Shown here: in pieces, positions 16,923-22,180 of the stretch
Numbering within the stretch: position 1 is the stretch's first letter
How the letters are laid out: each line of letters begins with the position of its first letter
Source: an uncultured Halobacteriovorax sp.
Lineage (GTDB): Bacteria > Bdellovibrionota > Bacteriovoracia > Bacteriovoracales > Bacteriovoracaceae
Assembly (NCBI GenBank): GCA_913061265.1
Contig: CAJXVS010000004.1
Span: forward strand, 186,001 to 250,000
Direction: 5' to 3'
Length of the DNA: 64,000 bases
The notes under the pieces: model-generated
What the model saw: the letters and a program-made list of their open reading frames with translations, nothing else
Told to the model about the DNA's origin: nothing
The model's database searches: none
Translations under genes and position numbers: made by a program

Positions 16923-17873
16923 CTACTGAAGGATTATATTGTCATTGTCTGTGTTGTCGTTTTTTTCTAATTCTACTTGAGGTAGATCTGGTAACTGAGT
17001 TTCTGATTTTTCAAAAGCTGCTGCTGCCATTTCTTTTAAAGATTCAGCATTGATCTCTTCACCAACTTGAAGCCCTTCTTCTTCGTCCTCATCTTCAAAT
17101 CCATTTGCCTGCTCTGGATTAAAGTCTTCTAAGTCTTTTGTTACATTGACGAAGATATTAGACATGGCTTCGTTTTGAGAGATCTCAACTCTATGAAGTC
17201 TTGCAAGTTCAAGAAGAGAAATAAAAGTGATCACAATATTATCTATTGATCTCTCTCCGTCATGATCTAGAAGAGTTTCAAAGTCAGTCTTGTTTCCAAC
17301 TTTTAAATATGATTTTAAGAATTCTAGTTTTTCTTTAATTGAAAGGCGGTCTCTTTTGATAACCGTATATTTCTTTCTCTCTTTTTGCATGAGTTCAATC
17401 ATGGCACCAGTTAACTCATCAAGCTCTAAAGGAGTCAGGATTGAATTGATAATGGCTTTTCTATTTACTTTAGGCTTACAGAAGATTTCATAACCTTTCT
17501 TAGGAAGCTCCCATAGGGCCTCACCCATCTTTTGAAAATGTTGTAATTCTTCAAGTCTACGAACAAGTTCTGACTGACTTGTAATATTTAACTCTCCAGA
17601 ACCATCAAGGCCTTCTTGGAGTCTTCCCATTTCTTCGTCAGTGACACAGTTCTTTGATTTCAAAAAGAGAAGCGTGGCCGCGAGGTATAGATAATCTCCA
17701 GCAACATCAAAGTTAAGCTCTCTCATTCCTGCAAGATAGCTTAAGTACTGTTGAGTAATTTTAGTTAGGTCGAGTTCTCTAACATCCATCTCTTCTTTTT
17801 GAACAAGAAGTAATAGAAGTGCTAGAGGCCCGTCAAAATGATCCGTTTTGACCTGTATACTAGTGTCTAACAT
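16923..17873 (-). CDS. scpA: Segregation and condensation protein A
   Basis: ScpA is the kleisin that bridges SMC heads in the bacterial condensin. The 316-residue protein has the N-terminal FDGPLALLLLLVQKEEMD motif, the internal YLYLAATLLFLKSKNC segment and the C-terminal winged-helix part (ITFISLLELARLHRVE). It extends into an acidic tail of about 70 residues after the conserved end, echoing the acidic tails of ScpB. It lies 17 nt downstream of the M50 protease gene and 12 nt before scpB, one operon. Confidence 0.94.
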   Translation of the reverse strand: MLDTSIQVKTDHFDGPLALLLLLVQKEEMDVRELDLTKITQQYLSYLAGMRELNFDVAGDYLYLAATLLFLKSKNCVTDEEMGRLQEGLDGSGELNITSQSELVRRLEELQHFQKMGEALWELPKKGYEIFCKPKVNRKAIINSILTPLELDELTGAMIELMQKERKKYTVIKRDRLSIKEKLEFLKSYLKVGNKTDFETLLDHDGERSIDNIVITFISLLELARLHRVEISQNEAMSNIFVNVTKDLEDFNPEQANGFEDEDEEEGLQVGEEINAESLKEMAAAAFEKSETQLPDLPQVELEKNDNTDNDNIILQ

Positions 17874-17890: not shown

Positions 17891-18547
17891 TTAACCTAAG
17901 AGGTTAATAAACAAACTTGTCATTCCATTGCCCATCATGAGCGCCGGAGCCATTATGTAACTTAATGCAGGCGTCATCCAAAGGATGACTATAAATAAAA
18001 ATGTAAAACGTTGTAGCTCTTCATACTTTCTCGCTTGTTCGTAATCTAAAAAAGTCGAGACCATCTTAGACCCATCAAGGGGCGGAAAAGGAATAAGGTT
18101 AAAAACAGCTAGAATGATATTGATATAGATTGATGATTGAAGCATCCCTAACACAACCGTGTTAAAGCCAAAATTTGAATTAACTTGTGTGTAGAGAATG
18201 GCCAAAAGGAGTGAGCTTAGTATCGCTAGAACAATATTTGCGATCGGCCCTGCGAAGCTAACCCAAAAGATTCCTTTATTAATATTCTTAAATTTTCTTG
18301 GATCAACAGGTACTGGCTTGGCCCAACCAAACATAGTCCCGCCCATAGCAATTCCGACTAAAGGGAAGATTATTGTTCCCACTAAATCGTAGTGAACAAC
18401 TGGATTCATGGAAAGGCGTCCCATCCTTTCAGCGGTATCGTCACCAAATTTCTTGGCCGTCCACGCATGTGCCCATTCATGGAAAACAATTCCAAGTAAA
18501 AAGCCCGGAAGGGCGGTGGCTAAACGAAGTACGATATTTCCATCCAT
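17891..18547 (-). CDS. Site-2 protease family (M50) membrane metallopeptidase
   Basis: The 218-residue polytopic membrane protein has the zinc motif HEWAH (H23, E24, H27) in the first helix and the third-ligand segment NLIPFPPLDG (D158) near the end. It belongs to the small YwhC-type M50 group that commonly precedes scpA. These enzymes cleave membrane-embedded substrates; the substrate is unknown. I favour the ATG at 18547 over a TTG at 18556; neither has a clear ribosome-binding site. It heads the M50-scpA-scpB-rluB operon. Confidence 0.9.
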   Translation of the reverse strand: MDGNIVLRLATALPGFLLGIVFHEWAHAWTAKKFGDDTAERMGRLSMNPVVHYDLVGTIIFPLVGIAMGGTMFGWAKPVPVDPRKFKNINKGIFWVSFAGPIANIVLAILSSLLLAILYTQVNSNFGFNTVVLGMLQSSIYINIILAVFNLIPFPPLDGSKMVSTFLDYEQARKYEELQRFTFLFIVILWMTPALSYIMAPALMMGNGMTSLFINLLG

Positions 18548-18668
18548 AGAGGTCAACTATAACAAGGGCTCTTCAATGAGACAACGAAACATGGCCGACA
18601 GAAGGACCTGAAAACCTAAAGATTTTAATCTCTTAACGCATCGAAACTGGTGTTAGAAATAGTTTTTT

Positions 18669-19901
18669 TTAAGCCGCGTCGCAAAAGCCGTTGGACTGCA
18701 CTGCAATAAATCGCACAAACTCTTCCAATTCTTTACACTGCCCGAAGTTATAACGCTTAAAGATTCCTCGAACGGTTTCTTCACGGTCATCGACTAGAAA
18801 CAATTCCATTTCTAATTCTTTATAGGGCAGCCTTATCTTTAAGTTTCGATTTCCAATAGGAAGATCTCCAGACATGGACTTATTAAGCATGATTCCGGCC
18901 GTTGAAATATTAACAATATTCACGGGAAAGAATGATCCAGAGCCTTCTATAATAGTAAGGTCATCAACCTCGTAACGTGGCTCTAACCTTTGAATCATGA
19001 CCGGGTACTCTGAACGGTTGAATACCTTTACGCCAGAGGTACCATTGATAGGCACGCCTGCTAAGAATTTCTTATAAAGCTTAGAGGTTAGTTTTTTATT
19101 TTCACAAGTAGAGATATGATCGGCATTTTTTAAGATACCAAAAGTGCTATTCGGACACATCCTTGCCACTTCAAAACATTCAGCCGGTGTTGTAAAGTTA
19201 TCATACTCCCCTACTAAGATTAAGGTTTCACAGGTTGGGCCTTCTGGTAGTTTCTCTAATGAGAGAAGCCTCCTTGTTGAAGCTTCGTACCTACATAACT
19301 CTAAGGCCTCAAGCTTCATCATATTTCGGTAAAGCCCTTGTTGTAGCAATTGAGAGCCTTTAATCTCATGCCTTCTATAAAAATTAAGAAGGTTTAAGAC
19401 TATGCCAGCGCTAAACTCTTCAATCTTTCCCTCATTCACAGAGATGATGCTTTCTTCTAATAAAAGCCTAATTGATTCACGAACCTTTGGAGTTGTTCCT
19501 CCAAGGATAAGCTTCTCAGTTCTATTCGGGTACTTTGAGGCGTAAGAAAAGGCTATGGCAGAAGCAAAAGAAGAGGCCACAGGAGTGATCTTCTCTATCC
19601 CCATTTGATCCATAAATTGGCAGAGTATATCGGCCAGGTCCTCAAAAGAGAGGTCACTCCCAGTATCGCTATTACTTCCAAATCCAGGGAGATCGACTAA
19701 AAGGATGGGGTGAACATCACTAAGCAGCTCTACGTCCTTTTTAAAGGAATGAAACTTTTGAAAAGCCCCTCCTAAGAAGACGATTGGACTTTTATGGCAA
19801 GTCTTTGGTCTAGAGAAGTTTAGGTATTGGATTTCTCTTCCATTAATAACTACTTTTAAAGGTGGTCTATCGAAAGAATCCATTGAGACAAGTGGTTTCA
19901 T
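18669..19901 (-). CDS. Alpha/beta-hydrolase fused to a C-terminal PilZ (c-di-GMP) domain
   Basis: The product has 410 residues. Residues about 35-280 form an alpha/beta-hydrolase: a nucleophile elbow with Ser111 in ASSFA (instead of GxSxG), Asp in GEYDNF (D234) and His in NADHIS (H262), so the triad is complete. Residues about 300-405 form a PilZ domain with both c-di-GMP-binding motifs, RLEPR (R305, R309) and NISTAG (N331, S333, G336). The obvious reading is a hydrolase activated or relocalised by c-di-GMP. The substrate is unknown and could be a lipid, ester or thioester. No signal peptide is present, so it is cytoplasmic. The gene is monocistronic, about 120 nt before the M50 gene on the same strand. 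Confidence 0.88.
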   Translation of the reverse strand: MKPLVSMDSFDRPPLKVVINGREIQYLNFSRPKTCHKSPIVFLGGAFQKFHSFKKDVELLSDVHPILLVDLPGFGSNSDTGSDLSFEDLADILCQFMDQMGIEKITPVASSFASAIAFSYASKYPNRTEKLILGGTTPKVRESIRLLLEESIISVNEGKIEEFSAGIVLNLLNFYRRHEIKGSQLLQQGLYRNMMKLEALELCRYEASTRRLLSLEKLPEGPTCETLILVGEYDNFTTPAECFEVARMCPNSTFGILKNADHISTCENKKLTSKLYKKFLAGVPINGTSGVKVFNRSEYPVMIQRLEPRYEVDDLTIIEGSGSFFPVNIVNISTAGIMLNKSMSGDLPIGNRNLKIRLPYKELEMELFLVDDREETVRGIFKRYNFGQCKELEEFVRFIAVQSNGFCDAA

Positions 19902-20076
19902 CTTGGGTATCCCTTAAGAACGAGAGAGCATTATATTGGATCAACGTACAGAAAGCATTTCTCAAGATCACTTTATCAATTGGAGAGATCGGGTCAACAC
20001 ACCGAATCACTATAATTTAACTCAAATATAAAACAGCTATTTAGAGACCTGCTGCCCATCATGTAGGGCGAATAAG

Positions 20077-20085
20077 TGATATACT
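20077..20085 (+). promoter_or_regulatory. Extended -10 promoter with almost no leader
   Basis: TGA-TATACT (20077-20085) matches an extended -10 element (TGnTATAAT with 5 of 6 in the hexamer). Transcription would start about 20092, only about 6 nt before the ATG at 20098, which lacks a Shine-Dalgarno sequence. No -35 match is seen, which is normal for extended -10 promoters. Confidence 0.4.
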
Positions 20086-20097
20086 CTAAATAACAAA

Positions 20098-21105
20098 ATG
20101 CGACTCTTTATCTGCTTAATATTGATCTACTCAGCTCCCATCTTTTCTCAAGATGATCTTCTCGCTGATTCACTTTCCGAAGAGATTGAAGCAAGTGACT
20201 TTTCCCTCATTGATAAGCTCTCCGACGAAGAAGATCAGTCACAAAAATTGGCCATCAGAGAACAGTATTATTCTGAAAGAGAAAAGCCATGGTCCCCAGT
20301 TCCCTTTAGAGCACTGATTCTTAAAGGAACTCGTCTCATTGATTTGAAGACTGAAAAAGTCTATTTCACTTCGTCTGATATTTACGCCTACGCGCAAGAA
20401 GAAACCAGAGGAAGTCAGCTAAGCTACATCCTTACTAAAGATAAGATCGCCAAGTATAAGACTTTTACAAAGAACCTAAGGTCTATCGAGACAGATGTAA
20501 CTTTGTACCCCAAAGTAAATCCTAATAATGTTTATATCTCTCAAGAAAAGCATCAAACTATAGACCCTTCGCTAAAGATTGAGACTCATTTAACCTTTCA
20601 TGCCGAGGCCATTAGTAATTCATATTTTGCTGATATTTATGGGGGTACAGAAACCCTCTCAACTGCTAATCGGTTTCAATCAAAGACTTATTATAACTCT
20701 CTTCTCCCAGTGGACTTTGGTCTTTCCCTCAGTTTCCAAACGGGGCTTTGGAATGAAGCCGATAATCCTGTAAGCTGGAAGTCCGGTTCCTTCGGGCCTT
20801 CTTTGAGATGGCGGTTCGGCAAATGGGGAAAGTTAAAGATGAACACTAAGGTTGGAGTTGAAAGGTCTTTTAACTTTAAAGCTGTCAGAGGCGATACGAT
20901 TAATGAATTCTCTAGTCTTTCCTATGACATTGAGCTTGAGGCTTCTTATGATAGCCCTATCGGCCCGATATTATTTGGTTGGGGATTTAGAAGGATGACA
21001 TGGCAATTAGAGACCTCTCAGTTCTCTTCAAATTTTAAAGATGATAAACAAGAACTCACCAGTACGAGTTTATTTTTAGGTTATAGGTTAGATTTTGAAA
21101 TTTAA
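20098..21105 (+). CDS. Secreted, probably outer-membrane beta-barrel-like protein
   Basis: The product has 335 residues and a signal peptide (MRLFICLILIYSAPIFSQ). The first ~90 mature residues are acidic and polar. From about residue 160 the chain shows alternating amphipathic strands ending in aromatic residues (for example LSFQTGLW, LRWRFGKWGKL, FGWGFRRMTW, TSLFLGYRLDFEI), the pattern of an outer-membrane beta-barrel, and it ends close to a strand. No specific family is recognised. It overlaps the next gene by 11 nt, so the two are coupled. Confidence 0.7.
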   Translation: MRLFICLILIYSAPIFSQDDLLADSLSEEIEASDFSLIDKLSDEEDQSQKLAIREQYYSEREKPWSPVPFRALILKGTRLIDLKTEKVYFTSSDIYAYAQEETRGSQLSYILTKDKIAKYKTFTKNLRSIETDVTLYPKVNPNNVYISQEKHQTIDPSLKIETHLTFHAEAISNSYFADIYGGTETLSTANRFQSKTYYNSLLPVDFGLSLSFQTGLWNEADNPVSWKSGSFGPSLRWRFGKWGKLKMNTKVGVERSFNFKAVRGDTINEFSSLSYDIELEASYDSPIGPILFGWGFRRMTWQLETSQFSSNFKDDKQELTSTSLFLGYRLDFEI

Positions 21106-22180
21106 TTTTATTCTTCTTTTCTCTTTATTTTCCCTCTCGCTTCATGCTGGAGAAGCCGTTGTTATTGTACTTGAAACCGCCCTCTATAAAGAGAATGATG
21201 CCAATTCAAAAGTCCTTCAACTAGCCAGAAAAAATCAAACGGTATGGATACATGACAGCGAATTTGGAGACTCTCCACTTTCTCCTGACTATAGCTCAAT
21301 GAATAATGCTACCGAACTTCGCGCCATCAAGAATGAGAACTTTTTAGACAGCCAACGAAAGTCCGGCTTCTTTGAGACCATGGATAGGAATGGCAAGACA
21401 GCTTTTATAAAACGTAGCCATGTTAAGCTCATTTATAAAGACGATCGAGAGTACCTCTCAAATGTTAATCCCTTTATAGAAGATCCTACGGACTACCGCT
21501 TAGAAGAGCCTCTTCCTAGGAGTTATCCTTTTACTGATGTTGATAAAAGAAGAGCCTTTATTCAAACTGTCTTTGGCCCTGCCGTCCGCTCTCGTTATGA
21601 ATATGAAGGAAACATCGCCTCCACTGATCGCTCTTTAAGAAAAGGAATTGCCGTCGGTTACGCAAAGAAAGTGAGTTGGGATAATGAAAATAGATTCTAC
21701 CTTGGTGGCTACGGTCATGTTCTCACTTCAGAAGCCAACTATACTTTCACAAGTGGCGAGCATGACTTTACTAGAGAAATTAGTTATCAAGTCTCTCTTG
21801 GACCTTACTTAAGCTACGACGTTCATAGGCAAGAAGATTGGCTTATCAACGTAGGTGGTGGATTTAATATTAACTGGAACCGCTACTTCGTGAAGATCAA
21901 CAACCTAACTCTCAAACAGGCGAGTGAAGAAAGATTGTTTCAAGGCTTTAGCATCTCCCCTAGAGTGTTTTCTGAATTTCATTGGAGAGATGTCCTCATC
22001 CAAGACCTCGATCTAGTTTTTGGAATAGACATGCAGTTTCATTCTGCACAAACCTATAAAGCTAAAAGCGCCCCCGTTAACCCAGATATTTGGGAGTACA
22101 ATGATTCTTTAGATTACAATGTAGTCTCCCCTTCCGCTGGGATCTTAACCTTCCTTGTTGGCATCCAATCTAGTTACTAA
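21095..22180 (+). CDS. Secreted SH3-like plus beta-barrel-like protein
   Basis: The product has 361 residues and a signal peptide (MKFNFILLFSLFSLSLHA) starting at TTG 21095, which overlaps the upstream stop by 11 nt. Mature residues about 20-115 resemble a bacterial SH3-like fold (VVIVLETALYKENDANSKVL, then KTAFIKRSHVKLI). Residues about 150-361 show amphipathic strands (KGIAVGYAKKVSW, FYLGGYGHV, WLINVGGGFNINW) like an outer-membrane barrel, and the chain ends VGIQSSY. This could be a cell-wall-contacting outer-membrane protein that works with the product of 20098-21105. Function unknown. Confidence 0.7.
   Translation: MKFNFILLFSLFSLSLHAGEAVVIVLETALYKENDANSKVLQLARKNQTVWIHDSEFGDSPLSPDYSSMNNATELRAIKNENFLDSQRKSGFFETMDRNGKTAFIKRSHVKLIYKDDREYLSNVNPFIEDPTDYRLEEPLPRSYPFTDVDKRRAFIQTVFGPAVRSRYEYEGNIASTDRSLRKGIAVGYAKKVSWDNENRFYLGGYGHVLTSEANYTFTSGEHDFTREISYQVSLGPYLSYDVHRQEDWLINVGGGFNINWNRYFVKINNLTLKQASEERLFQGFSISPRVFSEFHWRDVLIQDLDLVFGIDMQFHSAQTYKAKSAPVNPDIWEYNDSLDYNVVSPSAGILTFLVGIQSSY

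Follow-up and report, generated by a model that had tools for sequence, protein, structure and literature searches.

A hydrolase-PilZ fusion of Bacteriovoracaceae as a possible c-di-GMP-controlled enzyme

Most of the roles known for PilZ domains lie in the control of motility, of transcription or of polysaccharide synthases. Fusions of PilZ with enzymes beyond the polysaccharide synthases are already described, namely the N-acyl amino acid synthases Nas343 and Nas354 and the Leptospira protein LIC_20173. Here, we analyse a gene that joins an alpha/beta-hydrolase to a PilZ domain, located in a 64,000-nucleotide stretch of an uncultured Halobacteriovorax sp. (contig CAJXVS010000004.1, positions 186,001 to 250,000; hereafter the window). 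Direct control by cyclic dimeric guanosine monophosphate (c-di-GMP) is put forward for Nas343/Nas354 as well (PMC4897644); there, control by c-di-GMP is a proposal, and the acyl-amino-acid synthase is another kind of enzyme. Likewise, LIC_20173 carries PilZ joined to a hydrolytic enzyme, but this is an intramembrane metalloprotease and not an alpha/beta-hydrolase (PMC11800159). According to PMC2797640, Bdellovibrio has 15 potential PilZ genes, compared with 5 for GGDEF. An alpha/beta-hydrolase-PilZ fusion was not found reported in the literature searched, which covers few subscription journals.

The hydrolase-PilZ fusion, claimed by a first-pass annotation of the window, is real, as Pfam and fold agree for the hydrolase, and fold and a family profile for PilZ. 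The N-terminal half matches the Pfam model Abhydrolase_1 (PF00561) with 60.8 bits against a cut-off of 25.8 (E = 2e-16) and also passes PF12697 (27.6 bits against 26.3). A whole-chain AlphaFold2 model, built from a 17-row family alignment, reached a mean predicted local distance difference test score (pLDDT) of 88.5 and a predicted template modelling score (pTM) of 0.89, the latter being consistent with a fixed domain arrangement. In this model, residues 15-287 superpose best on 4q3l_A (Z 29.9, root-mean-square deviation 2.7 over 268 residues), and MGS-M2 (4Q3L) and the Thermogutta esterase (4UHC) belong, with PcaD, to the closest known hydrolases, which are of the 3-oxoadipate enol-lactonase/aryl-esterase type. 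The hydrolase folds of a PcaD-type 3-oxoadipate enol-lactonase (2xua_A, Z 27.8) and of RhlA (8ik2, Z 25.6) are also alike. In contrast to the window protein, these hydrolases align over the hydrolase half only, at 12-21% identity, and none is a PilZ fusion by title. Among NCBIfam models, the best E value belongs to that of a PcaDC fusion, whose cut-off is missed by a wide margin, and the PcaD equivalog TIGR02427 likewise stays short of its threshold (56.9 bits against 255.85).

When residues 286-410 were modelled alone from 28 relatives (pLDDT 84.3, pTM 0.73), ranks 1 to 32 in the structural alignment were all PilZ proteins with Z from 13.1 to 8.1, one of which (4q63) is titled uncharacterised, and the Foldseek list was headed by the same set of structures. 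Canonical receptors among them are the PilZ domain of BcsA (Z 13.1), MapZ (5xly_B, 12.2) and Alg44 (4rt1_B, 11.2). Furthermore, a profile made from the PilZ region of the 28 relatives retrieves the PilZ chains of MrkH and YcgR (E = 0.0036).

These relatives come from a profile search of 129 genomes of the window's order and 368 genomes of the phylum, complemented by one contig scan for close relatives. Full-length proteins were found in 19 of the 129 genomes and in 9 of 48 genera, each as one open frame of 400-443 amino acids. Outside the order, none of the 368 phylum genomes yielded a full-length relative; five further phylum matches cover hydrolase parts only, in open frames of 261-314 amino acids. 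As far as the searched set goes, the fusion family would be small and confined to Bacteriovoracaceae. Two congeners of the window's genome (G000) carry full-length orthologues in syntenic positions, 76% and 73% identical.

All eight key residues (S111, D234, H262, R305, R309, N331, S333 and G336) and the ASSFA elbow are located where the first-pass annotation had placed them. In the model, RxxxR precedes beta-1 (310-320) and NxSxxG lies in the turn that links strand 323-332 to strand 336-340, the same placement as described for canonical PilZ (PMC3131395). The window protein accordingly has both hallmarks of a canonical c-di-GMP-binding PilZ domain, RxxxR before beta-1 and [DN]xSxxG in the beta-2/beta-3 turn, and within the window's genus this combination resembles YcgR, MrkH, Alg44, the BcsA PilZ and MapZ. 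Judged by sequence position, the Ser-Asp-His places of the hydrolase are filled as well (S111, D234, H262). The GxSxG elbow, which is common though not universal in alpha/beta-hydrolases, is replaced by ASSFA with small residues on both flanks of the nucleophile. A nucleophile elbow tolerates small flanking residues.

Based on these features, we tentatively propose that in the window's genus a c-di-GMP-binding PilZ domain modulates a cytosolic esterase/lactonase-like enzyme, a reading that is possible but falls short of an even chance. The hydrolase half is predicted to be a Ser-Asp-His alpha/beta-hydrolase of the esterase, lactonase or thioesterase type. Catalysis and a cytosolic location are likewise predictions; no signal peptide or membrane segment was seen in the fusion protein on inspection by eye. 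Binding of c-di-GMP is proposed for this genus because the PilZ motif set is complete there, and the ligand is probably available, since GGDEF proteins are present (two in the window's genome, and in 19/19 fusion-bearing genomes). c-di-GMP would bind at R305, R309, N331, S333 and G336, directly after the linker; the bound ligand would shift the packing of PilZ against the hydrolase, and this shift may alter access to the active site or turnover, in a direction and on a substrate that we can only infer.

By sequence, the C-terminal half misses the cut-off of Pfam PilZ (PF07238; 13.8 bits against 22.5, E = 0.078), and just 3 of the 28 family members match this model at E 0.1. We attribute the low score to sequence divergence. 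It would also suit a fusion that arose by chance or was mis-called, e.g. where a sequencing error had run two genes together, but this is extremely improbable and is refuted by the 28 full-length relatives in 19 genomes with one frame each, the synteny in the congeners and the confident whole-chain fold. Several observations weigh against the proposed c-di-GMP-controlled enzyme, beginning with the PilZ motifs. Across the family alignment, R309 and G336 are invariant (28/28), while R305 is kept in 15, seven members having Ile and six having Gln instead. The motif Ser (S333) is found in only 5/28, with Asn in the remaining 23. The complete set of RxxxR and [DN]xSxxG is consequently limited to 3/28, the window protein and its two congeners, and is lacking in 25. 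Unlike canonical PilZ, the window's PilZ domain scores below the Pfam cut-off and is fused to a hydrolase, and its family is mostly incomplete in the motifs. As a yardstick, the motif stretches were read by eye in the 12 PilZ domains that pass the cut-off in the window's genome: Ser occupies the third place of the motif in 12/12, and [DN]xSxxG is present in 11/12. Because this Ser rule is broken in 23/28, the fusion family is odd among the PilZ domains of its own genome, the window's genus excepted. RxxxR stands ahead of the motif in 7/12 yardstick domains, the stretch being too short to judge in two; in three (G000 stretches L138, L141 and L146), the part that was read contains no RxxxR. Lack of the arginine motif may thus be common among the PilZ domains of the window's genome.

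This pattern could be explained by an active enzyme whose PilZ domain is not a c-di-GMP receptor but a degenerate structural or protein-binding module, so that even the full motif of the window's genus, whether retained or regained, goes unused. The scarcity of the complete set and the Asn in place of the motif Ser both favour it, as do the second copies of genus g60 (see below), which keep Ser-Asp-His and an ALSYG elbow in 7/7 although R305 has become Ile in 7/7. There is also a precedent in PilZ domains that bind weakly, barely detectably, and need a partner (PMC3131395). However, the retention of R309 and G336 in every member and of R305 in about half exceeds the apparent need of a purely structural module, and we consider this explanation rather unlikely.

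The hydrolase half raises the converse question. Asp234 and His262 are present in 28/28 relatives and Ser111 in 24/28, leaving the full triad in 24. The first-pass annotation had held that loss of the triad in close homologues would indicate a non-enzymatic domain; this loss is seen in part, as Gly replaces the nucleophile in 4/28 (L014, L016, L054 and L064), all of them copies beside the gene of an M50-family membrane protease (M50-side copies), a further point against the proposed control of an active enzyme. At the +2 position of the nucleophile, Gly is found in only 14 members, Ser in 9 and other residues in 5. On the tree, 8/25 inner branches lack support and several of the terminal ones are very long; the only safe figure is that the nucleophile Ser was lost in at least two parts of it.

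The window protein itself has drifted, which adds to the points against. Its ASSFA elbow is unique, both congeners having ALSYG, and at the 94 positions where ten chosen relatives all share one residue it carries 11 changes (V24I, I42F, V66I, Q74F, L110S, G113A, G117A, V167I, N208S, L263I and A264S) compared with 0 in the congeners; six of them (Q74F, L110S, G113A, G117A, L263I and A264S) fall by sequence in or next to motif stretches. In relative-rate comparisons with seven pooled neighbour genes (65:49), the whole protein gave 12:2 with syntenic outgroups (Fisher p 0.045) and the hydrolase half 23:5 with the ten-relative outgroup (p 0.017), and the invariant positions gave 11:0 against 19:9 (p 0.040); only 12:2 against 65:49 is like for like, and all p values are uncorrected and concern one lineage. 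Between the two congeners, the hydrolase half shows nonsynonymous and synonymous divergences (dN and dS) of 0.031 and 1.55, and this very low dN/dS indicates strong constraint there, whereas synonymous sites between the window protein and the congeners are saturated and give no dN/dS value. The catalytic half may be relaxing or changing its task in the window's species while retaining its triad residues; the protein there may be an enzyme of low activity, or may have become a scaffold by now, with the intact version carried by the congeners.

Such losses would also suit a pseudoenzyme sensor, in which the hydrolase fold serves as a scaffold or ligand pocket, the protein acts as a c-di-GMP effector through a bound partner, and catalysis has disappeared repeatedly, the window's species being in the course of losing it. 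The Ser to Gly replacements, the loose +2 position, the changes at otherwise invariant sites and the 12:2 rate count speak for it. But S111, D234 and H262 remain in the window protein with small residues flanking the nucleophile, a pure scaffold would not need the D234 and H262 that even the Ser-less members retain, and the rate tests are weak. Overall, we regard a pseudoenzyme as unlikely. The earlier claim of a c-di-GMP-controlled enzyme is partly supported: the complete motif set of the window's genus, the filled triad and the GGDEF proteins speak for it, and the family alignment speaks against it as a family-wide statement. From the alignments, a c-di-GMP-gated enzyme appears plausible for some members only, as both halves seem eroded at different places across the relatives.

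Duplicated copies show how the two halves diverge. One fusion copy per genome adjoins the M50 protease gene and scpA in 19/19 fusion genomes, and nine genomes (all 7 of genus g60, G059 and G028) have a second copy, which lies with hflX-like and S1-domain genes in the seven g60 genomes and G059, and elsewhere in G028. The g60 M50-side copies keep both arginines and the nucleophile Ser in 7/7, with Ser, Cys or Asn at +2. In g60, enzyme and sensor thus look as if divided between the copies. A clean sub-functionalisation is contradicted by G059, in which the arrangement is reversed: the second copy (L053) has RxxxR and the elbow, and the M50-side copy (L064) has lost both. That these are c-di-GMP-gated soluble serine hydrolases of predatory-type bacteria in which, after duplication, one copy keeps the elbow and loses an arginine while the other keeps the arginines and its elbow drifts, enzyme and sensor thereby separating within single genomes, is unlikely on this evidence.

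Directly after the g60 second copies, a TauE/SafE-type permease gene is found in 7/7 (L001:6228-7034 and equivalents in L002-L007), its products being 46-86% identical to that of L001. This gives a possible hint of an organic-acid substrate, restricted to these second copies, as the permease is absent beside the window's copy. Inference of a substrate from the M50-scpA-scpB neighbours was rejected, because housekeeping genes give no substrate pointer.

The features of the locus are collected in Table 1.

Table 1. Coordinates of the fusion gene, its domains and motifs, and the neighbouring genes in the window
Feature	Position	Strand	Basis or remark
Abhydrolase-PilZ fusion gene	18669..19901	minus	410 amino acids, ATG start, single open reading frame
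Alpha/beta-hydrolase domain, residues 15-287	19041..19859	minus	Pfam and fold
Linker and PilZ domain, residues 286-410	18672..19046	minus	fold of the part modelled alone
Nucleophile elbow ASSFA, residues 109-113, Ser111	19563..19577	minus	sequence alignment
Putative catalytic acid Asp234	19200..19202	minus	present in 28/28 relatives
Putative catalytic His262	19116..19118	minus	present in 28/28 relatives
RxxxR (RLEPR), residues 305-309	18975..18989	minus	sequence alignment
NxSxxG (NISTAG), residues 331-336	18894..18911	minus	sequence alignment
M50-family membrane protease, conserved downstream neighbour	17891..18556	minus	Pfam and synteny
scpA, conserved neighbour	16923..17873	minus	Pfam and synteny
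up1, divergent conserved neighbour, no assigned function	20098..21105	plus	synteny
up2, conserved gene, no assigned function	21095..22180	plus	synteny

The neighbours up1 and up2 gave no Pfam match above cut-off. Both evolve fast, with 59% and 55-56% identity to congener G001, and nevertheless stay next to M50-scpA in the majority of the order's genomes that were inspected. Promoter and terminator scans yielded no more than shuffled sequence.

Most of the order's genomes have, in the interval between the M50 gene and up1, a NUDIX gene (e.g. L111:3307-3729), which is absent from the window at 18556-20098. Its best named match is dihydroneopterin triphosphate diphosphatase (74 bits, under the cut-off of 103). 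A NUDIX match is present in 93/129 genomes of the order, being found in 1/19 genomes with the fusion compared with 92/110 without it (Fisher p 3e-11 by genome and 6e-5 by genus, uncorrected for kinship). The sole fusion genome with a NUDIX gene is G028, where both genes lie side by side. It seems that the fusion took the place of the NUDIX gene. A non-orthologous replacement of the NUDIX pyrophosphatase was considered and rejected, because the folK/folB pathway does not discriminate (folK, PF01288, in 17/17 and folB, PF02152, in 0/17 genomes checked, irrespective of the fusion) and the chemistry is also unlike. In G110 of genus g33, neither the fusion nor a NUDIX match is found; an unrelated open reading frame of 370 amino acids with an HExxH stretch, recognised by eye, occupies the locus (L101:972-2081), and the other two searched members of g33 have the fusion.

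If c-di-GMP does exert direct allosteric control over a soluble serine hydrolase, the targets of this second messenger would come to include a metabolic one. The family also offers a natural experiment, as intact and broken enzyme and sensor motifs occur at one syntenic locus, so that the coupling becomes comparable across natural proteins. Should the PilZ domain not bind c-di-GMP, the family would still represent a receptor domain kept after the loss of its motif.
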